DNA of 64,000 bases. Source: Georgenia thermotolerans. Lineage in GTDB: Bacteria; Actinomycetota; Actinomycetes; Actinomycetales; Actinomycetaceae. Below, piece by piece: positions 6,587-62,652 of this stretch. The number at the start of each line of letters is the position of its first letter. Positions within the stretch are counted from its first letter, which is position 1. The stretch spans positions 62,001-126,000 of the forward strand of contig NZ_VUKF01000007.1 in assembly GCF_009193185.1 (NCBI RefSeq), written 5' to 3'. The position numbers and the translations under genes were made by a program. Below the pieces are notes generated by a model that saw only the letters and a list, made by a program, of their open reading frames with translations, ran no database searches and was not told the origin of the DNA.

Positions 6587-8101
6587 CTAATATCGGACGG
6601 GGTTGTATCCTCTGCTCCGACGTGCGAGGCGCAGCGTGGCACCACCAGGGGGGCGCCCGTGGCACGCCTGCACCCGCACCCTTGCACGAAAGACGTGCCT
6701 ATGAGAGAACCCTGCACGCAGCTGGTCGATCGTCCGGGGGAGCGCCTCGGCATCGAGGGTGGTGCCGTCGTCGGGATTCGACCCGACGTGCATGAGGACG
6801 ATCTCGCCCGGTCGCTGCCCCTCCAGGGTGCGTCGCAGCACCTCGTCGGCGGTGATGCCCCGGCCCGTCCCTTCCCAGCCCAGCGTGTCGACGGTCCACC
6901 TCACAGCGAGGTACCCGGTGGCATTGACCGCATTCACGTTGGCCGCGGTGCGGTCGCCGTATGGGAACCGGAACAGCGGCTTGGCCGGCCTGCCCGTCAC
7001 CGCGACGATCGACGTCTCCGCGGCGGCCAGGTCCCGGCTGATCTGTCCTTCCCTCAGTGTGGGGAAGTGCGCGTGGGTGTTGGAGTGGTTCCCGAGCCGG
7101 TGTCCGGCCGCCGCGATGGCGGCGGCCCCGGCGGGGTAGCGGCGGGTGAAGTCGCCGGTGAGGAAGAACGTGGCCCGCACGCCCCGCGACTCGAGCGTCG
7201 TGAGGATCGAGCTCAGCGCAGCGTCGTTCGAGTCGGCGTCGAAGGAGAGGGCCACCACCGGGACCGACGTCGGGATCCGCTCCAGGTCGGAGCCCAGCAG
7301 GTTGCCGAGGTCGCCCAGGGCCGGCGGGCGCCGGATGCCCAGGGTGTCGGTCCCGTCCGCGTTCCAGTCGCCCGCGAGCGCGGCGTCGGTGGGGTTGCCG
7401 TAGGCGACGGTGCGGCCGGCGGCGCCGGTTGTGTTGGTGTCGCGGAGCAGGTAGCGGTTGCCGCGGCGGACGGCGAGGGTGTCGGTGCCGTTGCCGTCCC
7501 AGTCGCCGACCAGGACCGGGTCACCCGGGTCGCCGTAGGAGAACGCGCGATCGGCGGCGCCGGTGGTGTTGGTGTTGCGGAGCAGGTAGCGGTTGCCGCG
7601 GCGGACGGCGAGGGTGTCCGTGCCGTTGCCGTCCCAGTCGCCGACCACGGTCACGTCACGGGGGTCGCCGTACTGAAAGCTGAGCTGGGCGGCCCCGGTG
7701 GTGTTGGCGTTGCGCAGGAGGTAGCGGTTGCCACGGCGGACGGCGAGCGTGTCCGTCCCGTCGCCGTCCCAGTCACCGACCACGACGACGTCGCCGGGAT
7801 CACCGTAGGAGAAGGTCCTGTCGGCGGCGCCCGTGGAGTTGGAGTTGCGCACGAAGAATGTGGCGCCGCGCCGGACCAGCAGGGTGTCCCGGCCGTCGCC
7901 GTCCCAGTCGCCCACGTAGACGTTGTCGCCGAGGTTCCCGTAGCGAATCACCGTGACGGCCGCACCGGTGGGGGAGTCGTTGAGGTGGAAGGTGTCGCCC
8001 GGACCAGTCACCGATCCGCCCTGCGCAGAGGCGGGCGGACCGAGCAGGGCAGCGGCCCCGGTCAGGCCCAGCGCCACGATGCCCGCGAAGGTGGTGCGCA
8101 T
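6587..8101 (-). CDS. Secreted NodB polysaccharide deacetylase with N-terminal 5-repeat propeller
   Basis: A 504-residue exported protein counted from ATG 8101 (AGGG about 9 nt upstream); GTG 8128 would add nine residues. The signal peptide ends near ASAQG (residue 27). Residues 36-258 are the five-repeat module, with GDWD/GDWN at 64, 109, 154, 199 and 244, exactly 45 apart. The NodB domain spans about 282-460: SFDADSND (variant of the usual FDDG), the metal motif HSNTH at 339-343, RFPYG at 378-382, DTLGW, and His438 in VLMHVG. It probably removes N-acetyl groups from peptidoglycan or an exopolysaccharide outside the cell. The last 40 residues are Arg-rich and unlike the family's usual end, so a late frameshift is possible. 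Here the propeller precedes the catalytic domain; in the other four propeller proteins it follows. Confidence 0.85.
   Translation of the reverse strand: MRTTFAGIVALGLTGAAALLGPPASAQGGSVTGPGDTFHLNDSPTGAAVTVIRYGNLGDNVYVGDWDGDGRDTLLVRRGATFFVRNSNSTGAADRTFSYGDPGDVVVVGDWDGDGTDTLAVRRGNRYLLRNANTTGAAQLSFQYGDPRDVTVVGDWDGNGTDTLAVRRGNRYLLRNTNTTGAADRAFSYGDPGDPVLVGDWDGNGTDTLAVRRGNRYLLRDTNTTGAAGRTVAYGNPTDAALAGDWNADGTDTLGIRRPPALGDLGNLLGSDLERIPTSVPVVALSFDADSNDAALSSILTTLESRGVRATFFLTGDFTRRYPAGAAAIAAAGHRLGNHSNTHAHFPTLREGQISRDLAAAETSIVAVTGRPAKPLFRFPYGDRTAANVNAVNATGYLAVRWTVDTLGWEGTGRGITADEVLRRTLEGQRPGEIVLMHVGSNPDDGTTLDAEALPRTIDQLRAGFSHRHVFRARVRVQACHGRPPGGATLRLARRSRGYNPVRY
7328..7996 (-). repeat. Five 135-bp propeller repeats (NodB protein)
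   Basis: GDWD/GDWN codons begin at 7912, 7777, 7642, 7507 and 7372, each 135 bp apart. The block opens with a half-repeat (FHLNDSPTGAAVTVIRYG) and closes with TDTLGIRR, so the first and last halves complement each other. Confidence 0.9.
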
Positions 8102-8321
8102 CTTCACCCTGACCACCGCCTTTGGCACCGAGGGGCCTCATCGTGGCACCGGTCGCTGCGGGCGCAGGACCCCAGAAGTGGCTCTAGCCGGCACCGGAGC
8201 ATCCCTTCACCGGACGTGCACCACGCATTCCGGGGACGTTCGGCGCTGATTCATCCCGCGGGGAGAGCGTCTCTCCGGCACACTGTCAACGCTGGCCACG
8301 CCCAGCCCGGAAGGGGATTCC

Positions 8322-9644
8322 ATGCGCATCTCGGTGATCGGCTGCGGGTACCTGGGCGCCGTGCACGCCGCCGCCATGGCGAAGCTGGGGCACGACGTCG
8401 TCGGCGTCGAGACGGACCCTGGCAAGGCGCAGGCGCTTGCTGAGGGCGAGGCCCCGTTCTACGAGCCGGGCCTGCCCGAGCTGCTGCGCGAGGCGGTGGC
8501 CACCGGCCGCCTCATCTTCACCACCGAGCCGAGCGCCGCCACGGACGCACAGGTGCACTTCCTCTGCGTCGGGACCCCGCAGAAGCGCGGCGAGTACGCG
8601 GCGGACCTGCGGTATGTCGACGCCGCCGTCGCCTCCCTGCTGCCGTTCCTCGCGCCGGGAAGCCTCGTCGCCGGCAAGTCGACGGTCCCGGTGGGCACCG
8701 CCCGCCGGATCGCCGAGCAGGTCCGGCACGCCCAGCCCGACGCCATGGTCGCCTGGAACCCCGAGTTCCTCCGGGAGGGGTACGCGGTCAAAGACACGCT
8801 GCATCCCGACCGCATCGTCTACGGCGTCCCGGACGGGGCCGGGAGCGAGGCCGGCGCCCGGGCGGAGGCGCTGCTCGACGAGGTGTACGCCGCCCCGCTC
8901 GCCGAGCACACGCCCAAGGTGGTTACCGACTACACCACCGCCGAACTGGTCAAGGTCGCCGCCAACTCCTTCCTCGCGACCAAGATCTCCTTCATCAACG
9001 CCATGGCCGAGCTATGCGAGGCCACCGGCGCCGATGTCACCCAGCTTGCGGACGCGATCGGTCACGACGCGCGCATCGGCCGGAAGTTCCTCAACGCCGG
9101 CCTCGGCTTCGGCGGGGGCTGCCTGCCCAAGGACATCCGGGCCTTCATGGCCCGTGCCGGGGAGCTCGGCGTGGACCAGGCCCTGAGCTTCCTGCGCGAG
9201 GTGGACTCCATCAACATGCGGCGGCGCGTGCGCATGGTCGACCTCGCCCGGGAGGTGTGCGGCGGCTCCATCGTGGGTCGGAAGGTCGCCGTCCTCGGTG
9301 CCGCGTTCAAGCCGGACTCCGACGACGTACGCGACTCCCCGGCGCTCAACGTCGCGGCGCAGATGCAGCTGCAGGGCGCGCACGTCAAGGTCACCGACCC
9401 GCAGGCGATCCCCAACGCCGAACGGGCCTGGCCGGACCTCGTGTTCTCGCCGACCGTCGAGGAGGCGGCCGCCGATGCGGACGTCGTGCTGCTGCTCACC
9501 GAGTGGCGCGAGTACCGCGATCTCGACCCGGTCACCTTCGGCGAGGTCGTCGCCGGCAAGCGGATCATCGACGGCCGCAACGTGCTCGACCCGGCGACCT
9601 GGCGTGGTGCCGGGTGGACCTACCGCGCGCTCGGACGCCCCTAG
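8322..9644 (+). CDS. ugd: UDP-glucose 6-dehydrogenase
   Basis: A 440-residue enzyme that oxidises UDP-glucose to UDP-glucuronate with two NAD+. The Rossmann start MRISVIGCGYLGAVHAA, the substrate segment EFLREGYAVKD and the catalytic Cys267 in FGGGCLPKD are intact. The C-terminal UDP-binding domain begins near residue 320 (VAVLGAAFKPDSDDVRDSP). AAGGGGATT lies just before ATG 8322. It is transcribed divergently from the deacetylase gene across a 220-bp gap. It should supply glucuronate to the polysaccharides made here, and glucuronate would also be the substrate for the C5-epimerase-like lipoprotein at 26389. Confidence 0.93.
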   Translation: MRISVIGCGYLGAVHAAAMAKLGHDVVGVETDPGKAQALAEGEAPFYEPGLPELLREAVATGRLIFTTEPSAATDAQVHFLCVGTPQKRGEYAADLRYVDAAVASLLPFLAPGSLVAGKSTVPVGTARRIAEQVRHAQPDAMVAWNPEFLREGYAVKDTLHPDRIVYGVPDGAGSEAGARAEALLDEVYAAPLAEHTPKVVTDYTTAELVKVAANSFLATKISFINAMAELCEATGADVTQLADAIGHDARIGRKFLNAGLGFGGGCLPKDIRAFMARAGELGVDQALSFLREVDSINMRRRVRMVDLAREVCGGSIVGRKVAVLGAAFKPDSDDVRDSPALNVAAQMQLQGAHVKVTDPQAIPNAERAWPDLVFSPTVEEAAADADVVLLLTEWREYRDLDPVTFGEVVAGKRIIDGRNVLDPATWRGAGWTYRALGRP

Positions 9645-33806: not shown

Positions 33807-33928
33807 CTGACCACCCTTCTGCCAATGTCGATCCTGCGGTGGAGTGGCCCACCGGGGCTGTGCCAGCGTAGAGCCTGCGCCGGCCCGAAGCGTCGTGCGG
33901 CGGGGAGGCCGGCGGAACCGTTCTCGCG

Positions 33929-35128: not shown

Positions 35129-35292
35129 CCTAGGTAATGGTGCGTCGTATTCCGTGCACAAGCGTCAGTATCGAGGTAAAGATGTTGTGGAGGCGTCGGT
35201 CCCGTAAAGCCACGGGACGGTGCCCGAGGTCCCTCCACGCACCCCTTAGGCTTGCCGGGCCGCCGCAGCGGCACGGTCGAGCAGGAGAACAG

Positions 35293-37184: not shown

Positions 37185-39279
<2,095 letters not shown>

Positions 39280-44774: not shown

Positions 44775-46694
44775 ATGGGTAGGAAGATCCGCGGCTTCGT
44801 CGGTGCCGTGCTGTCGGCGGGCCTCGCCGTCGGAGGAGTGGTGGCCACCTCGAGCGGGGCGGCCGCCGAGGAGGCGATCTACCCCCCGCCGGCCTCGGGG
44901 TACTGGGACGTGCGCGGCCACGGCTGGGGCCACGGCAAGGGGCTGTCGCAGTGGGGCGCCCAGGGCGCGGCGCAGCAGGGCCTCAGCGCGGACCAGATCC
45001 TCGCGTTCTACTACCCGGGCACGACCAAGCAGAACGTCGGCAACGACGAGCTCCGGGTGCAGCTCCGGTCCTTCGGAACACCGTCGAAGGCGTCCTTCTG
45101 GAGCACGTCGGGAACCGGTGGCCCGCTCACGGCCGCCGACACCACGCTGGCCGGCAAGGTGACGATCACGCTCGACGCCGCAGGCTGGATCATCGAGCGG
45201 CCGGGCCAGTCGACTGTGAGGCGCACCGGCAACACGCTCGACGTGCGGGCGACGCCCGGTGCGGACTACGGCACGGGCGTGGTGCTTGCCGACTCCCCGA
45301 CGGCGACCACCGGCACCTACTATCACGGGTACTTCCGGCTCGTCCGCATCGGCAGCACGAATACGTTCGACGTGGTCAACCACGTCGGCATGCAGCTCTA
45401 CCTCTACGGCGTCGTGCCGCGGGAGATGCCGGCGAGCTGGCGCCCGGCCGCCGTCCAGGCCCAGGCCGTGGCGGCGCGGACGTACGCGCTCTCGGTCAAG
45501 CGCAGCACCGGTCACTTCGACCTGTGCGACACCGACCAGTGCCAGGTGTACGGCGGACGGGCCGACGTGTCCGACACCGGGGCGACCGTCTTCATGAAGG
45601 AGGACGCCCGCGCGAGCGATGCCGTCGAGAAGACCTACGGCCATGCGCGGTGGTACGGCGGCGCGGCCGCCTTCACGCAGTTCTCATCGTCCAACGGCGG
45701 GTACTCGCGCGGTGACAGCACGCGGCCGTACCTGGCGGCGCGGCCGGACCCGTACAGCGGGGTCGCGACCGGCGACCCCGTCTCCTCCTGGACCGCGCGG
45801 CTTCCCGTCTCGGCCGTCCAGGCGCACTGCCCGGCCGGCGGCTCCCTCCAGCGACTCGTCATCACGTCCCGCGACGGCCGTGGCGACCTTGGCGGGCGGA
45901 TCACGGGGGCCAGGGTGGAGTGCACCTCAGGGTCGGCGACGCTGCCGAACAACGAGGCGGTCTTCCGCTTCGGTCTGCGCTCGTCGTGGTGGGCGCCGGT
46001 CGAGCCGCCCCAACCCCGCTACCTCATCCACCTCAACAACTCCTTCACCGGCTACGCGGACACGGCGTTCAACTTCGGCGACCGGACCGACACCTTCCTC
46101 GTGGGCGACTGGGACGGACGGAACGGGGACAGTCTGGCGATCCGTCGCGGCAACGTCTTCCACTTCCGGAACTCCAACACCAGCGGCGTGGCGGAGAAGG
46201 CGATCTCCTACGGCAACCCGGGGGACACGATCCTGGTGGGCGACTGGGACGGTGACGGCGTGGACACGTTCGCGGTGCGCCGGGGCAACCAGTTCCACGT
46301 CAAGAACTCCATCAGCAGCGGCTACGCGGACCGGGTCATCGCCTACGGCAACCCCGGCGACGAGATCGTGGTGGGCGACTGGGACGGTGACGGCGTGGAC
46401 ACGTTCGCGGTGCGCCGGGGCAACCAGTTCCACGTCAAGAACTCCATCAGCAGCGGCTACGCCGACCGGGTCCTCTACTACGGCAACCCGGGAGACACGC
46501 TCGTGGTCGGCAACTGGGACGGCAAGGGCGGTGACAGCCTCGGGGTGCGCCGCGGGAACGTCTACCACTTGCGGAACTCGCTGACGTCCGGGGACGCGGA
46601 CCGCGTGGTGACGTACGGCAACCCGACGGACGAGGTGCTGCTGGGGGACTGGGACGGCAACGGTACCGACACCCTGGGCATCATCCGACGGTAG
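44775..46694 (+). CDS. Secreted SpoIID/LytB-domain protein with C-terminal 5-repeat propeller
   Basis: A 639-residue exported protein. The signal peptide ends near SSGAAAEE (residue 32). HGWGHGKGLSQWGAQGAAQQ and, from about 205, MQLYLYGVVPREMPASWRPA and VQAQAVAARTYAL identify the SpoIID/LytB domain; SpoIID itself is a lytic transglycosylase acting on denuded glycan strands. TQFSSSNGGYSRG matches the domain's conserved end. Residues 416-639 are the propeller module with five GDWD/GNWD motifs 135 bp apart. GGGGGAAC precedes ATG 44775. There is no LPXTG or C-terminal membrane helix, so surface retention would depend on the repeats. Confidence 0.88.
   Translation: MGRKIRGFVGAVLSAGLAVGGVVATSSGAAAEEAIYPPPASGYWDVRGHGWGHGKGLSQWGAQGAAQQGLSADQILAFYYPGTTKQNVGNDELRVQLRSFGTPSKASFWSTSGTGGPLTAADTTLAGKVTITLDAAGWIIERPGQSTVRRTGNTLDVRATPGADYGTGVVLADSPTATTGTYYHGYFRLVRIGSTNTFDVVNHVGMQLYLYGVVPREMPASWRPAAVQAQAVAARTYALSVKRSTGHFDLCDTDQCQVYGGRADVSDTGATVFMKEDARASDAVEKTYGHARWYGGAAAFTQFSSSNGGYSRGDSTRPYLAARPDPYSGVATGDPVSSWTARLPVSAVQAHCPAGGSLQRLVITSRDGRGDLGGRITGARVECTSGSATLPNNEAVFRFGLRSSWWAPVEPPQPRYLIHLNNSFTGYADTAFNFGDRTDTFLVGDWDGRNGDSLAIRRGNVFHFRNSNTSGVAEKAISYGNPGDTILVGDWDGDGVDTFAVRRGNQFHVKNSISSGYADRVIAYGNPGDEIVVGDWDGDGVDTFAVRRGNQFHVKNSISSGYADRVLYYGNPGDTLVVGNWDGKGGDSLGVRRGNVYHLRNSLTSGDADRVVTYGNPTDEVLLGDWDGNGTDTLGIIRR
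46020..46691 (+). repeat. Five 135-bp propeller repeats (SpoIID protein)
   Basis: Repeat motifs begin at 46104, 46239, 46374, 46509 and 46644, with no length change. A 92-nt stretch at 46236-46327 is repeated perfectly at 46371-46462, showing recent blade duplication. The block opens with LIHLNNSFTGYADTAFNFG and closes with TDTLGIIRR. Confidence 0.92.
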
Positions 46695-46763: not shown

Positions 46764-47795
<1,032 letters not shown>

Positions 47796-48003: not shown

Positions 48004-50223
48004 ATGGCACCGCACACCTTTGGCATTTCTCTGGTCATTTCCTCCCTGGTAGGCGTGAGCCTCGTGGGCGCGCCCGCACAGGCCGACGCGGAGGAGTCGA
48101 CGCCGGCCCCGTCAGCCGTCACGGTGGTCGGCCTGACCGGCGGAACGAGCCAGCTCACGAAGATCGCCCGCGACGGTCTCGAGCGGCTGGACGACACGGC
48201 CGGGACGGGGGCGGACCTGCCGACCGCGCCCGGCGCCGAGTCGCCCACTTCCGACCCCGCGGCCACCAGCCCGGTCGTGGGCGCTGCGGCAGGGCACGGC
48301 GGTCCGATGTCCGCGGGCGTGCCCGTCGTCATCCCCGCCGCGACCTCGTCGACGGAGGCCGAGGCGGCCGACGTCCTCCTTCTTACGCCTCCGATGGAGA
48401 CGCAGGAGTTCTACGTCGCCGGCGTCACCTGGGACCGCGACTCCTCCGAGGGCGGCTTCCAGGTGTTCCTGCGTGCCAGGCAGGACGGCGAGTGGCTGGA
48501 GTGGACCGAGCTCGACGTCGAGGCGGCCCTGGACGAAAGCACGGGCACCGCGGGCACGGACCCCTACGTGACCGGTGGGGCCACGGCCGTCCAGGTGCAG
48601 GTGAGCGGCCCGGAGGGCTCCCTGCCGGACAACCTGCAGCTCAGCCTCATGCCGAGCAACCCGACGGAGTCGGACGAGGTCGTGACAGAGGAGGGCGACG
48701 ACGTCACCTACCTGCCGGAGGAGGACGCGCCGTCGGACGTGGCCGACCCGGTGGCGTTCGCCGACGATACGACGTTCGCGCTGCTCGGGGGCCCCGCCGG
48801 CGGGTTCGCCGTCGCCGATGTCGCTCTCGACAGCGCGGGACCGGCTCCGGCGAGCTCTGCGCCGACGGCGATGCCGACGTCCGTTGCCGCGGCCGCCGAC
48901 GCGGCGACGACGGTGGTCCCCGCCGCTCTCACCGGCGGTGTGCAGGCCGCGGCGGCAGCCAGGCCGACCATCATCAGCCGTGCCGGCTGGGGCGCGGACC
49001 CCGCGCTCATGACCTGGACACCCACCCGAGCCGCGCTCAAGGCCGCGGTCGTCCACCACACCGCAGGAAGCAACAACTATACGGCGAAAGAATCGCCGGG
49101 CATCGTCCGCGGCATCTACTACTACCACGCCAAGGGAAACGACTGGGGCGACATCGGGTACAACTTCCTGGTCGACAAGTACGGTCAGGTCTTCGAGGGG
49201 CGGACAGGGTCCCTCGGCGCGCCGGCCGGCACGATGACCGTCGGGGCACATGCCAAGAACTTCAACACCGGCACGCTCGGCATCTCCGCGATCGGCGACT
49301 ACACCAAGGTGAACGCCCCACAGGTCATCCTCGATCGCATGGCCGCGGTCATCGCCTGGCGATTCTCCGACGCCGGCATCGACGTGCGCACCGCGAGCGG
49401 AATCACCTCTCCGGGGACCGCCGCCACCCCGGCAGGACGAAACCTGCCGAGGATCTTCGGTCACCGCGACGTCGGTTCGACGACGTGCCCGGGCAACGAC
49501 ATCTACGGTCGGCTGGGGTCGCTCACATCCGCGGTGGACAACCTCATGGGCCAGAAGATCTACCTCAACAACAAGTTCAGCGGGTACTCCGACGTTGACT
49601 TCCGGTTCGGTGCGCGCGGTGCGCAGATCCTCGTCGGCGACTGGAACGGCGACGGCAGGGACACCCTGGCCGCTCGCGAGGGCAACCGCTTCATCGTGAC
49701 CGACGAGAACAAGGACCGCGCGGCCACCCGCACCATCTACTACGGCAACCCCGGCGACGAGATCTACATCGGCGACTGGGACGGGAACGGCACCGACACC
49801 TTCGCCGTCCGTCGCGGCAACCAGTTCCACATCCGCAACTCCATGACCAGCGGCCAGGCGGACCGGGTGATCTACTACGGCAACCCGGGCGATGAGATCC
49901 TCGTGGGGGACTGGGACGGGAACGGCACCGACACCTTCGCCGTCCGCCGCGGCAACCAGTTCCACATCCGCAACACCCTGACATCGGGGTACGCGGACCG
50001 GGCGTTCTACTACGGCAACCCGGGCGACGTCATCCTCGTGGGGGACTGGGACGGGAAGGGCACCGACACCTTCGCCGTCCGCCGCGGCATCCGCTACCAC
50101 ATCCGGAACTCGCTGACGTCGGGCATCGCGGACGTCGTCGTCGACTACGGCAACGCCGGTGACCGCACCATCGTCGGGGACTGGGACGGCAACCGCACCA
50201 CCACGCTCGGGGTCGTCCGCTGA
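48004..50223 (+). CDS. Secreted PGRP-type N-acetylmuramoyl-L-alanine amidase with C-terminal 5-repeat propeller
   Basis: A 739-residue exported protein. Signal peptide to about residue 28 (VGAPAQADA), then a low-complexity acidic/Ala-rich region with a beta domain (FYVAGVTWDRDSSEGGFQVF). The amidase_2/PGRP domain spans about 325-515: RAGWGADPAL, VVHHTAGSNNY (zinc His351/352 region), GYNFLVDKYGQVFEGR, His487 in FGHRDVG and Cys495 in TTCPGN, so it should cleave the amide between MurNAc and L-Ala. Residues 519-739 are the propeller module, five motifs 135 bp apart. TCGGACG lies 64 bp upstream of ATG 48004. Confidence 0.9.
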   Translation: MAPHTFGISLVISSLVGVSLVGAPAQADAEESTPAPSAVTVVGLTGGTSQLTKIARDGLERLDDTAGTGADLPTAPGAESPTSDPAATSPVVGAAAGHGGPMSAGVPVVIPAATSSTEAEAADVLLLTPPMETQEFYVAGVTWDRDSSEGGFQVFLRARQDGEWLEWTELDVEAALDESTGTAGTDPYVTGGATAVQVQVSGPEGSLPDNLQLSLMPSNPTESDEVVTEEGDDVTYLPEEDAPSDVADPVAFADDTTFALLGGPAGGFAVADVALDSAGPAPASSAPTAMPTSVAAAADAATTVVPAALTGGVQAAAAARPTIISRAGWGADPALMTWTPTRAALKAAVVHHTAGSNNYTAKESPGIVRGIYYYHAKGNDWGDIGYNFLVDKYGQVFEGRTGSLGAPAGTMTVGAHAKNFNTGTLGISAIGDYTKVNAPQVILDRMAAVIAWRFSDAGIDVRTASGITSPGTAATPAGRNLPRIFGHRDVGSTTCPGNDIYGRLGSLTSAVDNLMGQKIYLNNKFSGYSDVDFRFGARGAQILVGDWNGDGRDTLAAREGNRFIVTDENKDRAATRTIYYGNPGDEIYIGDWDGNGTDTFAVRRGNQFHIRNSMTSGQADRVIYYGNPGDEILVGDWDGNGTDTFAVRRGNQFHIRNTLTSGYADRAFYYGNPGDVILVGDWDGKGTDTFAVRRGIRYHIRNSLTSGIADVVVDYGNAGDRTIVGDWDGNRTTTLGVVR
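49558..50220 (+). repeat. Five 135-bp propeller repeats (amidase)
   Basis: Motif codons begin at 49636, 49771, 49906, 50041 and 50176. The block opens with IYLNNKFSGYSDVDFRFG and closes with TTTLGVVR. The first blade is the most divergent (GDWNGDGRDTLAAREGN). Confidence 0.92.
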
Positions 50224-50284: not shown

Positions 50285-50905
50285 TCAGCCGCGGCGCAGC
50301 GCGGCGGTGAAGCCCGTCGCCTCCGCGTAGGCCGGGAGGAGCCCCTGGGCCGCCGCGTCCCGGAGGGAGGGGGCCGCTGCGTCCTTGTCGGAGAGCTGGA
50401 GGGTGAGCGGCCGGCCGCGCCGGTCGGTGGTCGGCCAGGTGATCGCCAGCTCCTCCGACAGCGGGTGCACCCCGTGCTCGCGGGTAGGGGCGTACGGCTC
50501 CGAGCACAGGTACATCACGGTCGAGCCGTCCTCGAGGGCGCAGAAGGCGTGGCCGAGGCCCTCGGACAGGTAGACCGCGCGCCGGTCGACGTCGTCGAGG
50601 AGGACCGCGTCCCAGGTCCCGAACGTCGGAGAGCCCACGCGGATGTCCACGACGACGTCGAGCACCGCCCCCGTCGGGCAGGTGACGTACTTCGCCTGGG
50701 AGGGCGGCACGTCGGCGAAGTGGATGCCGCGAACCACCCCGGCCGCGGACACGGAGCAGTTGGCCTGCTTGGGCTCGAACGGGTGCCCGACCGCGTCCTC
50801 GAACGCGGACTGCGTGAACCACTCCAGGAACACGCCCCGGGCGTCGCCGTGCTGGCGCGGGGTGATCTCCCACGCGCCGGGGACCGCCAGCTCTCGAAAG
50901 TCCAT
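50285..50905 (-). CDS. rmlC: dTDP-4-dehydrorhamnose 3,5-epimerase
   Basis: A 206-residue cupin enzyme, third step of dTDP-rhamnose synthesis. RGVFLEWFTQSAFEDAVGHP, QANCSVSAAGVVRGIHFADV (catalytic His near 62), AVLDVVVDIRVGSPTFGTW, VYLSEGLGHAFCALED and the C-terminal GVHPLSEELAITWP match the family. It is convergent with the amidase gene. The DUF2304 gene lies 54 bp upstream on the same strand. Confidence 0.93.
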   Translation of the reverse strand: MDFRELAVPGAWEITPRQHGDARGVFLEWFTQSAFEDAVGHPFEPKQANCSVSAAGVVRGIHFADVPPSQAKYVTCPTGAVLDVVVDIRVGSPTFGTWDAVLLDDVDRRAVYLSEGLGHAFCALEDGSTVMYLCSEPYAPTREHGVHPLSEELAITWPTTDRRGRPLTLQLSDKDAAAPSLRDAAAQGLLPAYAEATGFTAALRRG

Positions 50906-54688: not shown

Positions 54689-55621
54689 GTGGTTCTGGAC
54701 ATATTCGTGCCCTTCTACGGCGATCCGGAGGTCCTCCTGCTGGCCGTCGAGAGCGTCCGGCGCCAGGACAGCGGTGACTGGCGTCTCACGGTCGTCGACG
54801 ACTGCTATCCCGACACGACGGTGGGAGAGCGGGTCGCGGCCCTGGGGGACGACCGGGTCAGGTACGTGCGCAACGAGACGAATCTTGGGATCACAGGGAA
54901 CTTCGCCCGCTGCGCCGAGCTCGCCACCGCGGACCGCGTCGTGATCATGGGGTACGACGACGTGCTGCTCCCCAATTATGTCTCCACGATCGCCGCGGCG
55001 CACGAGGCGTATCCGCAGGCCGACATCATCCAGCCGGGCGTGCGCGTCATCGACGAGACCGGCGCCGACTCCTCCACGCTGGCGGACTGGGTGAAGCAGC
55101 ACGTCGTCAGGCCACGTGGGGATGGTCGCATGCTGCTCTCGGGCGAGCGCCTGGCGGCCTCGCTGCTGCACGGCGACTGGCTGTACTGGCCCTCGCTGGC
55201 CTTCCGGCGCGAGACGCTCCAGGCGGTGCCGTTCCGTGCCGGGCTGGCCGTCATCCAGGACCTGGCGCTCGAGATCGACATCGTGCTCGCCGGCGGCACC
55301 CTCCTGTACGAGCCCACCGTCTGCTTCGCCTACCGCCGCCACACGAGCAGCGCCTCGTCCGCCAAGCTGCTCGGGGCCGCGAAGTTCACCGGGGAGCGGG
55401 AGTACTTCACGCTCGCGGCCGCCCTCTTCCGGCGGCGCGGGTGGCGCAGGGCCGAGCGCGCGGCGCGGTTGCACCTCACCTCCCGCGCCCACGCCCTCAC
55501 GCTGCTGCCCTCCGCCCTCGTGGCGCGGGAGACGGCGACGACGAAGGCGCTCCTGAGCCACGCGTTCCGACCCCTGCAAAGGCGCGTCGCGCCGACCAAC
55601 CCCAGCGAGGTGGCCTCATGA
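54689..55621 (+). CDS. Glycosyltransferase family 2
   Basis: A 310-residue GT-A enzyme beginning LDIFVPFYGDPEVLLLAVES with LTVVDDCYPDTTVGERVAAL and a metal site in VIMGYDDVLLPNYV. RRRGWRRAERAARLHLTSRA near the C-terminus is shared almost word for word with the 62677 gene, so the two are recent paralogues. GTG 54689 follows TGAGG at 6 nt. Its last codons overlap the rmlD ATG. The acceptor may be the rhamnose-containing glycan because of this linkage, which is inferred. Confidence 0.85.
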   Translation: MVLDIFVPFYGDPEVLLLAVESVRRQDSGDWRLTVVDDCYPDTTVGERVAALGDDRVRYVRNETNLGITGNFARCAELATADRVVIMGYDDVLLPNYVSTIAAAHEAYPQADIIQPGVRVIDETGADSSTLADWVKQHVVRPRGDGRMLLSGERLAASLLHGDWLYWPSLAFRRETLQAVPFRAGLAVIQDLALEIDIVLAGGTLLYEPTVCFAYRRHTSSASSAKLLGAAKFTGEREYFTLAAALFRRRGWRRAERAARLHLTSRAHALTLLPSALVARETATTKALLSHAFRPLQRRVAPTNPSEVAS

Positions 55622-56463
55622 CCCGGTGGCTGGTCGTGGGCGGCACCGGCATGCTCGGCCGCGACGTGGTCGCGAGGCTCGCCGGGCAGGAGGTGCGCGC
55701 GGTCGGCAGCGCGGAGGTCGACGTCACCGACCCGGCCGCCGTGGACGACGCCGTCGCCGGCTCCGACGTGGTGGTCAACTGTGCGGCCTACACCGCCGTC
55801 GACGCGGCGGAATCCGACGAGGGGCAGGCCTTCGCGGTCAACGCGGTGGGCCCCCAGCTGCTCGCGCGTGCCTGCGGAGCCGCCGCGGCGCGGCTGGTGC
55901 ACGTCTCCACCGACTACGTGTTCGACGGCGCGGCCGACCGGCCGTACGAGGAGGACGCGCCGCTGCGGCCGCGGTCCGCCTACGGCCGGACGAAGGCCGC
56001 GGGGGAGTGGGCCGTGCGCGCCGGCCTCGCCGACCACCTGGTCGTGCGGACGGCGTGGCTGTACGGCGAGCACGGGTCGTGCTTCCCCAGGACGATGGCC
56101 CGGCTCGCGGCCGACCGGGATGAGCTGCGGGTGGTCGACGACCAGGTCGGCCAGCCCACTTGGACCGCCGACGTGGCGGACCTCATCGTCCGGCTCGTCG
56201 CGGCCTCGGCACCCAGCGGGACCTACCACGCGACCTCGTCCGGCAGCACCTCCTGGCACGGCTTCACACGCAGCGTGATGGCGGCGCTGGGCAAGGACCC
56301 CGACATGGTCCGGCCGACGACGTCCGCGGAGTTCAGCCGGCCGGCCCCGCGTCCCGCGTACTCCGTCCTGGGCCACGGCGCCCTCCTGGCAGCCGGCGTC
56401 GCCCCCATCGGCCGATGGGACGAGCGCTGGGAGGTCGCGGCGTCGGCCGTCCTCGGCCGCTGA
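55618..56463 (+). CDS. rmlD: dTDP-4-dehydrorhamnose reductase
   Basis: A 281-residue SDR, last step of dTDP-L-rhamnose synthesis. LVVGGTGMLGRDVVARL binds the cofactor; NCAAYTAVDAAES, VSTDYVFDGAADRPYEE, and Tyr/Lys in SAYGRTKAAGE form the active site; VRTAWLYGEHGSCFPRTMA and DDQVGQPTWTADVA bind the sugar nucleotide. ATG 55618 overlaps the preceding stop. It is convergent with the M23 gene with only 4 bp between stops. Confidence 0.94.
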   Translation: MTRWLVVGGTGMLGRDVVARLAGQEVRAVGSAEVDVTDPAAVDDAVAGSDVVVNCAAYTAVDAAESDEGQAFAVNAVGPQLLARACGAAAARLVHVSTDYVFDGAADRPYEEDAPLRPRSAYGRTKAAGEWAVRAGLADHLVVRTAWLYGEHGSCFPRTMARLAADRDELRVVDDQVGQPTWTADVADLIVRLVAASAPSGTYHATSSGSTSWHGFTRSVMAALGKDPDMVRPTTSAEFSRPAPRPAYSVLGHGALLAAGVAPIGRWDERWEVAASAVLGR

Positions 56464-56467: not shown

Positions 56468-58129
56468 TCACATCCGGTACAGCGTGAAGGTGTCGGTGCC
56501 GTCGCCGTCCCAGTCGCCGACGAACGTCTCGTCGCCGGGGTTCCCGTAACCGAACGCGACGTCCGCCACGCCGCTGGTCAGGGAGTTCCGCAGGTGGAAC
56601 CAGATGGACCGCTGAACCCCCAGCGTGTCCGTGCCGTTCCCGTCCCAGTCACCGACGAGCACCTCGTCACCAGGGTTGCCATAGGAGAAGGCCAGGTCCG
56701 CGTAGCCGGAGGTCAGGGTGTTCTTGACGTGGAACCGGTTGCCGCGGCGCACGGCGAAGGTATCGGTGCCGTCGCCGTCCCAGTCGCCCACGAGGATGTC
56801 GTCGCCGGGATCACCGTAGGTGATGACCCGGTCCGCGTAGCCGCTGGTGACGCTGTTCTTGATGTGGAACTGGTTGCCGCGGCGGACGGCGAAGGTGTCG
56901 ATGCCGTCGCCATCCCAGTCCCCGACGTAGAGCTCGTCGCCGGGGTTGCCGTACTGCACGAGGCGGTCCGCCCCGCCGGTGGTCAGGGAGTTGCGGATGT
57001 GGAAGGCGTTCCCGCGGCGGACGGCGAAGGTGTCGGTCCCGTCGCCGTCCCAGTCCCCGGCCAGGAACCGGTCGTAGTACTCCCCGAAGTCGAAGATGCG
57101 CGTGGCCGTCGACCGGAAGGAGTTGGCGACGAAGAACCCGGACTCCACACCCTGGCTCACGCCCTCCTCCATGCGGAAGTCCCGCCCGTGCACCCAGCCG
57201 GCCCGGCCCGAGGTGTGCACCTGGTACCAGTCGTCCTGGAACGAGACGACCCGGTCCAGCGCGGTGCCCGGGGCTAGCGTGGCGAGCGCCCGGGTGCCCG
57301 CACCCGGGCCGCCCCGCAGCGTCGTCGTCCGCGTGACGGTGCCCTCCGGCACGCCGAGGCGCTCGGGCGAGACGTTGCCCGCCGGCGCCCAGCCGGAGAC
57401 ACCCGCCGCACTGACGGCGATGAAGTCCCCGGTCTTCGCTCCCGGCGTGGACGACATGGGCGTGTGGTTCCCCACGGTGGCCACCACGGGGGACGAGGCC
57501 GACGGGGCGGACCGGATCGGCGTCGACCCGACCGCGTAGTACGTGCAGGAGGCGGGCGGCGCCCAGGGCATCGCCCGCGTGGCGGCCGCGGCCAGGTCGA
57601 TGCCCCGGCCACGGAACCAGCCGACGGGCTCGACGGTGTTGCGGCCGTCGGGGGTGTCCAGCCAGATCTCGAGGTGAAGGTGCGGCGCCGTCGACACACC
57701 GGTCGACGAGACCTCCGCGATCTTCTGGCCGGCATTCACGTGCCAGCCCTCGCGGACGAAGGCGTCGGCGTCACGGACGTGGGAGTAGCTGCTGTAGACC
57801 CGGCGCCCGTCGATGGTGTGCTCGATGAGGATCCACTGGCCGGCGACGGCGTCCGGGCGGGTCCGGACCACCGTGCCCGGCGCCACCGAGACGATGGGGC
57901 TCCCCTCGGAGGCGCCCAGGTCGACCCCCTTGTGGAAGGTGGAGGCGAGGACCGTGGGGATGCACCGTGGCCCGTAGTGCGAGGTCAGCGCGTACCCGTC
58001 ACGATCGAGCGGGCCGCTGAGGCTCCCGGCGCGCGGCGTCGCCCCGGTGGCCGCGGGGCCGGCGAGCGCGAGGGCCGGGGCCAGCAGGGCCGCGGCCAGG
58101 TAGGGCCAGGATCGACTTCTCGGGGACAT
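56468..58129 (-). CDS. Secreted M23 peptidase with C-terminal 5-repeat propeller
   Basis: A 553-residue exported protein. Signal peptide to about residue 30 (ALAGPAATGA). The M23/LytM domain (about 40-170) has zinc ligands His66 and Asp70 in HKGVDLGA and His150/His152 in HLHLEIW, with YSHVRD between them, so it should cut peptidoglycan cross-bridges. Two SH3-like segments follow (IRSAPSASSPVVATVGNHTP; TTLRGGPGAGTRALATLAPG). Residues 332-553 are the propeller, five GDWD motifs 45 apart. ATG 58129 follows GAGGAG. The upstream gap holds a CGGACGATATCCG dyad. Confidence 0.9.
   Translation of the reverse strand: MSPRSRSWPYLAAALLAPALALAGPAATGATPRAGSLSGPLDRDGYALTSHYGPRCIPTVLASTFHKGVDLGASEGSPIVSVAPGTVVRTRPDAVAGQWILIEHTIDGRRVYSSYSHVRDADAFVREGWHVNAGQKIAEVSSTGVSTAPHLHLEIWLDTPDGRNTVEPVGWFRGRGIDLAAAATRAMPWAPPASCTYYAVGSTPIRSAPSASSPVVATVGNHTPMSSTPGAKTGDFIAVSAAGVSGWAPAGNVSPERLGVPEGTVTRTTTLRGGPGAGTRALATLAPGTALDRVVSFQDDWYQVHTSGRAGWVHGRDFRMEEGVSQGVESGFFVANSFRSTATRIFDFGEYYDRFLAGDWDGDGTDTFAVRRGNAFHIRNSLTTGGADRLVQYGNPGDELYVGDWDGDGIDTFAVRRGNQFHIKNSVTSGYADRVITYGDPGDDILVGDWDGDGTDTFAVRRGNRFHVKNTLTSGYADLAFSYGNPGDEVLVGDWDGNGTDTLGVQRSIWFHLRNSLTSGVADVAFGYGNPGDETFVGDWDGDGTDTFTLYRM
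56471..57136 (-). repeat. Five 135-bp propeller repeats (M23 peptidase)
   Basis: Motif codons begin at 57058, 56923, 56788, 56653 and 56518, 135 bp apart. The block opens with a half-repeat (FFVANSFRSTATRIFDFG) and closes with GDGTDTFTLYRM. Confidence 0.9.
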
Positions 58130-58222
58130 GCCTGCTCCTCGGGGCCTCCCGTGGCCCCAGGCGGACACGGGCCCCGCCACGAGGCGCCCCCGCGGCGAGG
58201 TTACGGACGATATCCGTTTGGC

Positions 58223-58249
58223 CCCGGCGGGCGCAGGCGACCCGCCGGG
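58223..58249 (-). terminator. Hairpin after rmlA
   Basis: A 9-bp GC stem (58223-58231 with 58241-58249) and 9-nt loop, 21 bp beyond the rmlA stop. There is no T-run. It would separate rmlA from the downstream M23 gene on the same strand. Confidence 0.45.
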
Positions 58250-58269
58250 CGGCCCGGAGGCGTCCCGCG

Positions 58270-59133
58270 CTACTCCGCCAGCAGGCCGAGCAGGTACTCG
58301 CCGTACCCGGACTTCCGGAGCGGCTCGGCCCGACGGCGCAGCTCCTCGTCGGTGAGGAACCCGCGCCGCCACGCGACCTCTTCCGGGCACCCGATCTTCA
58401 GGCCCTGTCGCGCCTCGACGGTCCGGACGAACGCGGTCGCGTCGGCCAGGGAGTCGAACGTGCCGGTGTCCAGCCAGGCGGTGCCACGGGGAAGCACCTC
58501 GACCTTCAGGCGGCCCTGGTCGAGATAGGCGCGGTTGACGTCGGTGATCTCGTACTCGCCCCGGGCCGACGGCTGCAGGTTCCGCGCGATCTCCACCACG
58601 TCGTTGTCGTAGAAGTACAGCCCCGGTACGGCGTAGGAGCTCTTGGGTCGGACGGGCTTCTCCTCGAGCGACACTGCGCGGAACTGCTCGTCGAACTCCA
58701 CCACCCCGTATGCCGTGGGGTCGGCGACGTGGTAGGCGAAGACGGCGCCGCCGTCGATGTCGTGGAAGCGACGGAGGGTCTGGCCCATCCCGGGCCCGTA
58801 GAAGATGTTGTCCCCGAGAACGAGGGCCGCCCGGTCCGTCCCGATGAAGTCGGCGCCGAGGACGAAGGCCTGCGCCAGCCCGTTGGGGCTCTCCTGCACC
58901 TGGTAGGAGAGGGAGATGCCGAACTGCGAGCCGTCGCCCAGGAGCCGGCGGAAGGACGCGGCGTCGTGGGGGGTGGTGATGACCAGGACGTCCCGGATAC
59001 CGGCGAGCATCAGGGTGCTCAGCGGGTAGTAGACCATCGGCTTGTCATACACGGGGACGAGCTGCTTGCTGACGCCTTGGGTGATCGGGTGCAGCCGGGT
59101 ACCGGATCCTCCCGCGAGAATGATTCCGCGCAT
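58270..59133 (-). CDS. rmlA: Glucose-1-phosphate thymidylyltransferase
   Basis: A 287-residue nucleotidyltransferase, first step of dTDP-rhamnose synthesis. [20 protein letters not shown] is the nucleotide site, followed by [33 protein letters not shown], the sugar site FSLEEKP-like [20 protein letters not shown], and GRGTAWLD-like [14 protein letters not shown] 59133 is used. It completes the rml set, which is spread over 46.8-59.1 kb on both strands. It diverges from manA across 62 bp. Confidence 0.95.
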
Positions 59134-59195
59134 CTGTCCAGTGTCACCCTTCCTCGGCGTTACGGTGGCGTTACGACGATAATGGAGGGACGGCG

Positions 59196-60404
59196 GTGCA
59201 GAGGCTTCGGGGTGTGGGGCGTGACTACGCGTGGGGCTCGACCGAAGCCATCCCGGCACTGCTCGACGAGCCCGCCACCGGCGAGCCGGTCGCCGAGATG
59301 TGGTTCGGCGCGCACCCGGCGGGCCCTGCCCACGTGGTCGGACGCGGTGACGGCGTGGCGAGCGACCTCCGGTCCATGATCGCCGCGGACGCCGCCGGCA
59401 CGCTCGGAGAGGACGTGGTCTCCCGCTTCGGGCCGCGTCTGCCGTACCTCCTCAAGCTCATCGCGCCGGCCCGCCCGCTTTCGTTGCAGGTACACCCCAG
59501 TCTCGAGCGAGCCCAGGAGCGCTTCCGGGCAGAGGATGCCGCCGGGATCCCCCGGGACGCGCCCGAACGAAACTACCGCGACCCGAACCACAAGCCCGAG
59601 CTCGTCTATGCGCTGACGACGTTCGAGGCGGTGTGCGGCTTCCGGGCGCCGCGCCGCGCCGCCGAGCTGTTCGCGAACCTCTCCGCGCCCCTGGCCAGGG
59701 ACCTGCGGGCGGTGCTGCGGCAGGATCCCACCGCGGCCGGCGTGCGCACCGTCTTCACCTCCCTGCTCGACGAGAGGACCCGGCCGTCCGCCGAGGAGGT
59801 CCAGGCCGTGGCCCGGTCGTGCGCGGGGCGCCTGCGCGACGGGTCGCCGTCGCCGCGCGCCGACCACACCGTCGTCATGCTGGCGGAGGCCTATCCCGGT
59901 GACCCTGGGGTGGTGGCATCGTTGCTGCTCAACCCGGTGACCCTCCAGCCCGGCGAGGCGTTGTTCGTCCCGGCCGGCGGCGTGCACGCCTACCTCTCGG
60001 GCCTGGGGGTCGAGGTCATGGCGTCCTCCGACAACGTGCTCCGGGCCGGGCTCACCACCAAGCACGTCGACGTCGCGGAGATGCTCGAGTGCGTCGACTA
60101 CGTCGCCGCTCCGCCCATCCGTCCGGCGCCGGAGATCTTCCATGGCGCCACGCGCGTCTACTACGCGCCCGTGGACGACTTCGAGCTTTCCGTGACGCAC
60201 CTCTCCGACGGCGCCGACGACGCCGGCCACCCGCTTCCAGGGCGCGGGCCCCGGGTGCTGCTGTGCCTGGACGGGGTGATCAGCGTGGCGACCGGCGCCG
60301 AGCTGCTCACGCTCGCCCGTGGCGACGCCGTCTTCGTCCGGGCGGACGAGGGACGGCTCACCGTGCGCGGTGTCGGCACGCTCGTCCAGGCAGACGTTCC
60401 CTGA
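59196..60404 (+). CDS. manA: Mannose-6-phosphate isomerase, class I
   Basis: A 402-residue zinc enzyme interconverting fructose-6-P and mannose-6-P. Landmarks are [41 protein letters not shown] (zinc Gln/His), [13 protein letters not shown] (zinc Glu), and the C-terminal [20 protein letters not shown] with [17 protein letters not shown], where Arg and Lys contact the phosphate. GTG 59196. It feeds GDP-mannose, and so the DPM1-type gene at 51457, or mannose-containing glycans. It is upstream of, and cooriented with, the subtilase gene. Confidence 0.93.
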
Positions 60405-60579
60405 CCTCGCGGCCCTGGCATCGCACCGCACCCCGATGCGGGTGCGCACCGGGCCGGCCTTCATTGGACGACACCCGTCCGATCTGGGTCTACGCTGGCG
60501 TCGCGCCACGGACGGACCGTCCTCGCGCCGGCGTAGTCCGGGCCCCTGCTGATGCGCTGATCGGATGGGAGAAACCATC

Positions 60580-62652
60580 ATGATGCGTGGTTCTGGTATC
60601 TCACGCGTCGCGCGCCGTCTCGGTGCGGTATGCGGCGCGGCCGTCCTGGTTCTCGCCGGCTCCTCCGCGGCGGCGAAGGACGAGGTCGGCGGCGACGTCG
60701 AGGAGCTGATCGTCGCGTACGAGCCCGGGGTCCCCCCGACGGCCGCGCCCGGTGTGCCGACAGGCGCCGATGCCGTGCCGGACACGGACTTGCAGACCGG
60801 CGAGCCGCTGGGCCTCGGCCTCCACACGGTCGAGCTTGGCGAGGCCATGAGCGCGGACGAGGCCGAGGCGGTCGCCGCGGAGCTCGCCCGGTCGCCCCAG
60901 GTCCGGTGGGCCGAGCCGGACGTGGCCGTGTCCGTGCCCGAACCGGCGGCCGGCCCCGACGGCGTCCCGGGGTTCCGTACCGTCGGTGACATCACGACCA
61001 CCGCCCAGCAGGCGGGAGCGTCCTGGGGGCTGGACCGCATCGACCAGCGTTTCGGCCTCGACGGGACCTACAGCTATGAAGACCCCGGCGGGGGCGTCAC
61101 CGCTTATGTCGTCGATACCGGCATCCGCGCCACGCACCGGGACTTCACGGGCCGGGTGCGTGCGGGGTTCGACGCCGTGGGCGACGGCCAGGGCACCGGC
61201 GACTGCAACGGGCACGGCACCCACGTGGCGGGCACCCTCGGCGGGACTGTGTACGGCGTCGCCAAGAGCGTCAGCCTCGTGCCCGTGCGCGTGCTGGACT
61301 GCGGAGGGTCGGGTGACGTCTCGGACGTCATCGCGGGCGTGTCGTGGATCGTGTCGCACCATGCGTCCGGCGTGCCGGCCGTGGCCGTGATGAGCCTCGG
61401 CGGGCCTGTCAGCGCCGCTCTGGACGCCGCCGTGGAAGCGCTGATCAAGGACAACGTCACCGTCGTCGTCGCCTCGGGGAACGATGGCGTCTCGGCCTGC
61501 GACTCCAGCCCGGCGCGCGTGCCCGCGGCCATCACGGTCAACGCCTCCACGAGGGCGGACGTGCGGGCCGCCTACTCGGACTTCGGGTCGTGCACGGACG
61601 TGTACGCCCCCGGCACCGGGATCGAGTCCGCCTACTTCACCTCCGACACGGCCGCGGCGCTCGCGGACGGTACCTCCATGGCCGCTCCGCACGTTGCCGG
61701 GGTGGCCGCCCGGCTCCTGGAGGGCGCTCCCACGATGACGCCCGGCCAGGTGGCGGCGCGGATCCAGGGCACCGCTACGCCGGTGGACCTCATGCCCGGC
61801 CGAGCGGACGATCCCAAACGGCTCGTCTATGCGGCGCCGAACCTCTTCCCGCCGGCGCCCGCGCCTGCCCCCGCGCCGACGCCGGCGCCCGCCCCCACGC
61901 CGAGGCCGGCGCCTGCCCCCGCGCCGACGCCTGTCCCCGCGCCGACGCCTGTCCCCGCGCCGCAGACCGCCCCGGCCACGTGGGGCTTCTTCCTCAACAA
62001 CCGGTTCTCCGGCAACGCCGACGTCCACTTCACCTACGGCAACCCGGGCGACGAGGTGCTGGTGGGGGACTGGGACGGCAACGGCACCGACACCGTGGCC
62101 GTGCGGCGCGGTGCCACGTTCTATATCCGCAACTCCAACAGCTCCGGCCCCGCGGATCGCGTCATCACCTACGGCAACCCCGGGGACGTGGTGCTGGTGG
62201 GGGACTGGGACGGCAACGGCACCGACACCTTCGCGGTGCGCCGCGGCAATGTCTTCCACATCCGGAATTCCATGACGTCCGGCCCCGCGGACCGCGTCGT
62301 GATGTATGGCAATCCCGGGGACGTCGTGCTCGTCGGGGACTGGGACGGCAACGGCACCGACACCTTCGCGGTGCGGCGCGGCAACGTCTTCCACGTCCGT
62401 CACTCCATGACGTCCGGGATGGCGGATCGCGTGGTCATGTACGGCAATCCCGGCGACGTGGTGCTGGTGGGGGACTGGGACGGCAACCGCACCGACACCT
62501 TCGGTGTGCGCCGGGGCATCGACTACCACCTGCGCAACTCGATGACCTCCGGGATGGCCGACGTGGTGGTGGCCTACGGCAACCCGGGCGACGAGGTGCT
62601 GGTGGGCGACTGGGACGGCAACCGGACCGACACGCTCGGCGTCCGCCGCTGA
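60580..62652 (+). CDS. Secreted S8 (subtilisin-like) protease with C-terminal 5-repeat propeller
   Basis: A 690-residue exported protease from ATG 60580, chosen because GGGAG lies 9 nt upstream (ATG 60565 would add five residues). Signal peptide to about residue 32, an I9-like propeptide (about 40-115, ending RWAEPDVAV), then the S8 domain with Asp179 (VVDTGI), His212 (NGHGTHVAG), oxyanion Asn in ASGNDG and Ser366 (GTSMAAPH), all intact. A Pro/Ala/Thr-rich linker (about 425-463) leads to the propeller, residues 470-690, five motifs 45 apart. Likely roles are processing or turnover of surface proteins. Confidence 0.91.
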   Translation: MMRGSGISRVARRLGAVCGAAVLVLAGSSAAAKDEVGGDVEELIVAYEPGVPPTAAPGVPTGADAVPDTDLQTGEPLGLGLHTVELGEAMSADEAEAVAAELARSPQVRWAEPDVAVSVPEPAAGPDGVPGFRTVGDITTTAQQAGASWGLDRIDQRFGLDGTYSYEDPGGGVTAYVVDTGIRATHRDFTGRVRAGFDAVGDGQGTGDCNGHGTHVAGTLGGTVYGVAKSVSLVPVRVLDCGGSGDVSDVIAGVSWIVSHHASGVPAVAVMSLGGPVSAALDAAVEALIKDNVTVVVASGNDGVSACDSSPARVPAAITVNASTRADVRAAYSDFGSCTDVYAPGTGIESAYFTSDTAAALADGTSMAAPHVAGVAARLLEGAPTMTPGQVAARIQGTATPVDLMPGRADDPKRLVYAAPNLFPPAPAPAPAPTPAPAPTPRPAPAPAPTPVPAPTPVPAPQTAPATWGFFLNNRFSGNADVHFTYGNPGDEVLVGDWDGNGTDTVAVRRGATFYIRNSNSSGPADRVITYGNPGDVVLVGDWDGNGTDTFAVRRGNVFHIRNSMTSGPADRVVMYGNPGDVVLVGDWDGNGTDTFAVRRGNVFHVRHSMTSGMADRVVMYGNPGDVVLVGDWDGNRTDTFGVRRGIDYHLRNSMTSGMADVVVAYGNPGDEVLVGDWDGNRTDTLGVRR
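61987..62649 (+). repeat. Five 135-bp propeller repeats (S8 protease)
   Basis: Motif codons begin at 62065, 62200, 62335, 62470 and 62605. The block opens with FFLNNRFSGNADVHFTYG and closes with TDTLGVRR. Middle blades are highly similar at the DNA level. Confidence 0.92.

Follow-up and report, generated by a model that had tools for sequence, protein, structure and literature searches.

FG-GAP/VCBS propellers are usually seven-bladed, and the FG-GAP calcium loop spans nine residues (D-x-[DN]-x-D-G-x-x-D). The animal lectin Tachylectin-2 is a five-bladed propeller, similar in length to a repeat module described here from five exported enzymes of Georgenia thermotolerans, which are encoded in a single stretch of 64,000 nucleotides (contig NZ_VUKF01000007.1, positions 62,001 to 126,000), hereafter the window. 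A five-bladed propeller with a putative N-acetylglucosamine (GlcNAc) cavity serves wall recognition in gp45, the tail receptor of the staphylococcal phage phi11 (PMC6115969). Streptomyces umbrella particles likewise carry five-bladed propellers on secreted actinobacterial proteins, termed UmbA 5BP1-12; for the related UmbA4 propeller, with blades labelled b1-6, the ligand is a teichuronic-acid polymer of the wall (PMC13274773). In Corynebacterium, the wall enzyme MytA ends in five tandem LGFP repeats with a reported peptidoglycan-arabinogalactan interaction (PMC11299179). The hydrolase PcsB is mislocalised when a rhamnose polymer is lost, and so is Atl when teichoic acid is missing (PMC4931226). 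We propose that the Georgenia module is probably an FG-GAP-like, five-bladed wall-retention lectin that docks enzymes on a wall glycopolymer, most likely a rhamnose-containing one. This proposal draws on the five-motif repeat, a fold prediction, the terminal placement of the module, a phage lysin and linkage to rml genes, all of which were computed here.

The module resembles the FG-GAP/VCBS class in the Asp-rich loop behind a GDW/GDF motif, the four-strand blade pattern and the propeller fold (by AlphaFold2 and Foldseek), and differs from it in having five blades, a loop one residue shorter and a 45-residue unit. UmbA lectins are described as part of a toxin particle directed against other species, where they follow a trypsin-like domain, whereas the module here sits on the bacterium's own exported enzymes; the UmbA 5BP families were set against it by description only, and no trypsin-like domain was found in the five window proteins, nor among the 25 families of 50 shorter relatives and the 25 of 41 families listed for 24 longer ones. 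The comparison with phi11 gp45 is also by description, its PDB entry being absent among the 50 Foldseek matches listed for the S8 and phage modules, and Tachylectin-2 is not named among the 50 listed for the S8 module. Kinship with LGFP was rejected on fold: as described in PMC11299179, LGFP units are helix-plus-sheet structures of ~54 residues on a stalk, in contrast to the 45-residue all-beta propeller blades of the module.

In the window, 25/25 GDWD-type motifs lie in register at 45-residue steps, and splitting the five modules by this register gave 20/20 intervals of exactly 45 residues. A strict regular expression run over six frames of the window returned 21 repeat motifs, every one within the five named open reading frames (ORFs), and the four that it missed are variants (one GNWDGKGGDS, two GDWDGNRTDT and one GDWDGNRTTT). 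A first-pass annotation of this DNA had claimed exactly this arrangement, five enzymes with five motifs each at constant spacing, and had seen in it a dedicated module common to unrelated exported enzymes; both statements hold, and Pfam confirms the five catalytic domains. The modules and their proteins are the following.

7328..7990, minus strand: module of the NodB-type deacetylase, N-terminal, directly after a signal-like sequence (protein 6587-8128; Polysacc_deac_1, E 3.6e-24)
46020..46691, plus strand: module of the SpoIID/LytB protein, C-terminal (protein 44775-46694; Pfam SpoIID, 2.2e-25)
49558..50220, plus strand: module of the PGRP-type amidase, C-terminal (protein 48004-50223; Pfam Amidase_2, 1.1e-13)
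56471..57136, minus strand: module of the M23 peptidase with SH3 repeats, C-terminal (protein 56468-58390; Peptidase_M23, 2e-22)
61984..62649, plus strand: module of the S8 protease, C-terminal, the copy folded by AlphaFold2 (protein 60565-62652; Peptidase_S8, 6.1e-35)

The module thus stands at the N-terminus of the NodB protein and at the extreme C-terminus of the other four. With its listed GTG start, the M23 ORF overlaps that of rmlA; translation more likely begins near 58129. Read by eye and without a predictor, all five proteins begin with signal-like sequences, and neither an LPXTG motif nor a C-terminal hydrophobic helix is visible in any of them. The S8 module shares 62-70% identity with the other four. 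A whole-genome search (E<=1e-3) found exactly five module copies, all inside the window and spanning 55 kb, and the chance of five random genes clustering within this distance is about 1e-7 by a crude formula. Each module is 221-224 residues long and is laid out as a half unit of 25-27 residues, four units of 45 and a second half unit of 16-17, which we read as a fifth blade divided between the two ends of the module.

The AlphaFold2 model of the S8 module, calculated with an alignment of 64 sequences, is a confident one (predicted local distance difference test, pLDDT, 96.1; predicted template modelling score, pTM, 0.90), and its 20 strands, read as five four-strand blades, indicate that the module is almost certainly a five-bladed beta-propeller. 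The strand pattern and lengths suggest that the N-terminal and C-terminal half-blades pair and so probably close the ring. Two half units forming one fifth blade would explain the constant number of five motifs, since such a ring could hardly gain or lose blades; in the genus, 57 of 70 modules have lengths of 220-222 residues. Across the 64 sequences the loop is D-W-[DN]-G-[DN]-G-x-D, eight residues, and its Asp/Asn positions are retained in nearly every blade (D3 95%, D/N5 98%, D/N7 92%, D10 99%). This loop is FG-GAP-like and one residue short, as originally proposed. The remaining conserved positions of the blade are W4 98%, R15 93%, R16 97%, N24 83%, Y37 91%, G38 about 100% and D42 98%.

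The alignment (A2) combines the five window modules with 59 of 76 loci from other genomes, 63 having passed length and stop filters before a 92% redundancy cut. No curated Pfam or NCBIfam model covers the module in these 64 sequences. Pfam FG-GAP_3 matched 2/64 modules at E<=1e-5 (best 1.4e-7) and 48/64 at E<=10, and on the window proteins it reached two of five at E 0.06-0.08, with 14-14.5 bits against a cut-off of 26.9. Eight scattered NCBIfam models each matched 1-5 of the 64 modules at E<=1e-3 (PA5033_fam 2/64), the commonest being an S-methyl-5'-thioadenosine phosphorylase model that scored far below its cut-off. Against PDB sequences, the 64-row profile found nothing at E<=1 and a five-row profile found HTRA serine proteases only, at E 0.12 or worse. 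Searches of the open-access literature returned no published description of a GDWDG-type repeat, and the accessible parts of PMC10076258 and PMC2447325 hold no account of one. Judged by sequence profile and predicted fold, the module is a new FG-GAP-like family, real and previously nameless.

Relatives of the module number at least 526 among 590 stretches, from which the 76 loci were retained. Among the matches listed, the nearest come from Georgenia, and others from Oceanitalea, Bifidobacterium, Actinomyces, Geodermatophilus, Propioniciclava and three clostridial records. Modules are present in 9/9 genomes of the genus, in 32 of 99 relatives (genus counted in) and in 28 of 396 genomes of a phylum sample, 18 of these 28 at E<=1e-15; a plasmid search gave a single weak match, from Ahniella. 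The position is terminal in 71 of the 76 loci (C-terminus 58, N-terminus 13, internal 5), and a regular expression for LPXTG found 0/76. Host families were counted in 74 loci, 50 of up to 900 residues and 24 longer, L071 and L080 being omitted for masked stretches, although the unmasked module of L071 was retained in alignments A2 and A5. Among the 50 shorter hosts (E<=1e-5) we found Amidase_2 in 7, Amidase in 5, CAP in 5, SpoIID in 3, and GH3, S8 and NlpC in 2 each, with single cases of M23, NodB-type deacetylase, YkuD, GH25 and others. The longer hosts, for which 25 of 41 families were listed, include PKD (5), metallophosphatase (4), CBM6 (4), GSDH (4), ThuA (3) and 5'-nucleotidase (3), as well as one alpha-L-rhamnosidase domain. 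Hosts thus reach beyond wall enzymes, which argues for a general surface module: the label "wall enzymes" fits the five proteins of the window and is too narrow for a family that is also found on phosphatases, glycosidases and PKD-rich giants.

Two further features were seen in module proteins. L010, L011, L017 and L046 have a short tail after the module, ending in an Excalibur-like D-x-D-x-D-x-x-x-CE motif, and the Excalibur family gave one match at E<=1e-5 among the 50 shorter hosts. At G008:C36:208277-210799 (L121) there is a tandem pair of module-bearing S8 proteases, and a loose count finds seven GDW-like matches in the 221-residue module of one of the two ORFs.

For function, the best evidence comes from a phage lysin, because a wall-binding domain is usually found at the end of lysins from phages that infect Gram-positive bacteria. 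A viral scan yielded 6 relatives out of 379 pattern matches, among them contig L107, which encodes a lysin of 408 residues with an amidase domain at 11-171 (phrog_1493 endolysin, E 4.7e-20) followed by motifs at positions 197, 240, 285, 330 and 374, the first being a GKW variant. The lysin gene has portal, head protease and virion protein genes as neighbours, and the module occupies the place of the wall-binding domain; it begins at a different blade point than the bacterial modules, yet keeps five motifs. Its AlphaFold2 model (pLDDT 90.4, pTM 0.86, 19 strands, last eight residues below 50) is not independent, as it was built from an alignment with 28 bacterial modules and a further viral one. 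In Foldseek searches, Psathyrella lectins were among 17 matches of the L107 model at E<=1e-3, with integrins at 2.5e-3, and the Agrocybe GlcNAc lectin was among 11 matches of the S8 model at the same limit, with Psathyrella GlcNAc lectins at 1.4e-3 to 4.7e-3; for the S8 model, the Agrocybe and Psathyrella lectins together span E 6e-4 to 5e-3 and template modelling (TM) scores of 0.46-0.52. A BFVD fold search gave nothing at E<=1e-3. When the viral contigs were rescanned with the L107 module as query, the matches were L107 and two distant contigs already seen in the first scan. On contig L112 (7398-8294), a viral amidase (phrog_1794) ends in two motifs, and two blades alone cannot form a ring. 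Contig L111 (G+C 0.32) encodes at 7446-8732 an M23-like peptidase followed by FG-GAP-like repeats with the full nine-residue loop, as read by eye, and is maybe a parallel use of longer-loop relatives; endolysins with FG-GAP-type cell wall binding were not found in the open-access literature.

Taken with the propeller model, the lectin and integrin matches and the terminal position in 71/76 loci, the lysin makes wall retention by glycan binding quite likely, so that the surface-retention or glycan-binding role first suggested for the module gains support. Some results pull the other way. The top Foldseek matches of the S8 model are human regulatory propellers and no close solved structure was found; only one viral contig has all five motifs; and among 50,697 phage records neither the S8 module (E limit 1e-5) nor the L107 module (0.01) found a match.

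The question of which sugar is bound leads back to the window, which a Pfam scan identifies as a large wall or capsule polysaccharide locus with genes matching all four rml steps. From 44.8 to 62.7 kb the order is SpoIID with module, rmlB, PGRP with module, rmlC, DUF2304, two GT2 genes, rmlD, M23 with module, rmlA, phosphomannose isomerase and S8 with module, so that rmlA-D are interleaved with four module enzymes. The genes that bear on a rhamnose polymer and its attachment are these.

46764..47756, minus strand: rmlB-like dTDP-sugar dehydratase (GDP_Man_Dehyd 4.8e-68, Epimerase 3.3e-60), between SpoIID with module and PGRP with module
50285..50905, minus strand: rmlC, dTDP-4-dehydrorhamnose 3,5-epimerase (PF00908, 6.6e-58), 137 bp from the PGRP module match
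55441..56463, plus strand: rmlD-like gene (RmlD_sub_bind, 2e-92), adjoining M23 with module; the ORF start overlaps the preceding gene
58270..59259, minus strand: rmlA-like sugar nucleotidyltransferase (NTP_transferase, 2.3e-74), adjoining M23 with module
32565-34064 and 33929-35161, minus strand: two LytR-CpsA-Psr (LCP) genes (PF03816, 2.4e-43 and 1e-43), a class that links glycopolymers to the wall

In neighbour maps, rml genes are interleaved with module genes in 9/9 genomes of the genus. Counterparts of rmlA (79-89% identity) and rmlD (69-74%) lie at the module loci of 8/8 congeners, and those of rmlB (79-86%) at 7/8; in G002, a 20-kb stretch holds rmlA, rmlC and rmlD and rmlB was not seen, while in G008 rmlA is on a separate contig beside S8 with module. 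The distance from rmlC to the module match is 102-1305 bp in all nine genomes, with p 0.0015-0.009 each under random placement, where module numbers per genome were counted by hand and several genome sizes rounded. Across the 99 relatives, rmlC occurs in 32/32 module-positive vs 37/67 module-negative genomes (Fisher 8e-7). The association persists in the family outside the genus (14/14 vs 18/38) and when the family is collapsed to genera (10/10 vs 11/26, p 0.0018), and in the phylum sample rmlC is present in 26/28 carriers vs 291/396 genomes overall (one-sided p 0.009). These figures favour a rhamnose-containing ligand tentatively, at somewhat less than even probability. The early suggestion that the ligand is the polymer made by this locus therefore fares better in its rhamnan half, by gene linkage, than in its galactan half, which is taken up below. 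Wall sugars of Georgenia were not found in the open-access literature.

Several points weigh against rhamnose. In other families the excess of rmlC is not significant (9/9 vs 19/29, p 0.079), and among strong phylum carriers it is small (16/18, against the same 291/396). G400 (96% complete) and G470 (80% complete) have strong modules and no rmlC was seen in either, so rhamnose may not be universal. Linkage outside the genus is weak: 22 of 23 carriers were searched for positions (G072, a borderline case, was omitted), seven gave no listed position, and in the remaining 15 rmlC lies within 2.3 kb in three, at 13-27 kb in nine, not on the same contig in two and at 953 kb in one (combined p 0.0025), these distances being upper bounds because they were measured to listed module rows. 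Within the genus, the genomes share ancestry and so do not give nine independent p values, and linkage to modules would be apparent for any gene of a wall locus. UGD1 and LCP genes also lie near modules in several genomes, so a uronate or a linkage unit could be the ligand, and an acidic rhamnose polymer and a linkage region would be indistinguishable on this evidence.

Under the rhamnose-lectin reading, pairing of the half-blades would close the ring and let the module fit either end of any exported enzyme, and the Asp/Asn-rich loop of each blade could hold calcium. The ring would present up to five similar faces, so that a repeating polymer could be held tightly through many weak contacts. 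Once exported, the module would dock its enzyme on the strain's own wall glycopolymer, for which the interleaved rml genes would supply rhamnose and which LCP ligases would attach, and wall-remodelling enzymes would stay at the surface without a sortase or membrane anchor.

The alternative that survives best, although we consider it unlikely, is that the ligand is peptidoglycan itself or a conserved linkage unit, and that the rml neighbourhood merely marks a wall-building locus. It would suit the host enzymes (Amidase_2 7, SpoIID 3, NlpC 2, M23 1, YkuD 1 and GH25 1 of 50), the two module-positive genomes in which rmlC was not seen, and the GlcNAc specificity of the lectins matched by Foldseek. 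However, peptidoglycan is near-universal whereas modules occur in 28/396 phylum genomes, and among the 99 relatives they are found only alongside rmlC. That the module is not a lectin but a calcium-dependent protein-protein or self-assembly domain, an enzyme scaffold, is improbable. Every blade has an Asp-rich loop, propellers commonly serve as protein docking platforms, and the top Foldseek matches are protein-complex propellers, but the module hosts are extremely varied, and a related module follows the amidase of a phage lysin, for which membership of a host scaffold would serve no obvious purpose. A passive folding or secretion aid without ligand would accord with placement at either protein end and with neighbour maps that show no module beside the PGRP of G006 and the SpoIID of G002; we regard it as very improbable, as the L107 lysin, without an obvious signal sequence by eye, still has the module.

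The weakest candidate, galactofuranan, is best considered with the module tree and the following two genes of the window.

140..2242, plus strand: GlfT2-like galactofuranosyltransferase (PF19320, 8.7e-46)
37218..38414, plus strand: Glf, UDP-galactopyranose mutase (PF03275, 1.4e-83)

Glf proper and near full-length GlfT2 are confined to the same three of nine genus genomes (G000, G003 and G008), though modules are present in all nine; GlfT2 at E<=1e-3 extends to 6/9, three of those being short stretches. In the phylum sample GlfT2 was found in 26/396 genomes and modules in 28/396, and G000 alone has both (Fisher p 1.0). Galactan as a general ligand was rejected on these counts. Modules are thus common where the galactan genes are missing, a finding that the first-pass annotation had named as damaging to its own ligand proposal; for rmlC this holds in 2/28 phylum carriers.

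The tree was calculated from 67/70 modules of the genus stretches, which cover part of 88 genus match rows, and both the host enzyme and the genome leave a signal in it, so no strong claim of concerted evolution is made. By the approximately unbiased test (p-AU), only the SpoIID modules are clearly rejected as one clade (0.002; PGRP 0.052, S8 0.052, M23 0.099, NodB 0.198), and the SpoIID catalytic parts follow a simple tree, unlike their modules. The 18 modules that G000, G003 and G008 contribute to the tree all fall into one group across unlike enzymes (one change, branch support 88), for which kinship and replacement within the lineage suffice, as these three genomes are close kin. Galactofuranan is hardly credible as the ligand, since the presence of Glf and GlfT2 in the window and the single group formed by the modules of the Glf-positive genomes are offset by six genus genomes that have modules without Glf or near full-length GlfT2, by the phylum overlap of one genome and by the kinship that accounts for the group.

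A wider picture, of plug-in surface display without sortase in Actinobacteria, is possible but doubtful as a whole: a five-bladed propeller lectin borne by many kinds of secreted enzyme may be tuned as a set to a rhamnose-based polymer, with copies exchanged or replaced within a lineage and phage lysins using the same key. The wall-retention reading, if right, would explain and name a module that curated libraries miss and show how secreted enzymes remain on the actinobacterial wall without sortase, and it would offer a marker and affinity tag for the wall polymer; the phage lysin module could serve as a wall label. With rml genes for wall building set between genes for wall-remodelling enzymes, the locus lends itself to a test of polymer-enzyme matching.

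The rest of the locus, by Pfam, includes acyltransferase-SGNH, sugar dehydrogenase, aminotransferase, Wzz, Wzx-like, ABC ATPase and several GT2 genes, with a Wzy-like gene as a weak match slightly below the Pfam cut-off. Two DUF6541 proteins, at 2258-4354 beside GlfT2 and at 42723-44684 beside SpoIID with module (E 3.7e-92 and 3e-101), are possibly membrane glycosyltransferases. Between 16000 and 32000, G+C is 0.58-0.64 per 4 kb vs 0.67-0.74 elsewhere in the window, and this stretch, which spans the Wzx-like, epimerase, C5-epimerase and weak Wzy-like genes, resembles a serotype-type cassette that has been exchanged. The C-terminal domain encoded at 26389-28098 resembles D-glucuronyl C5-epimerase (PF06662, E 1.7e-25), which is unusual in the setting of a wall polymer.

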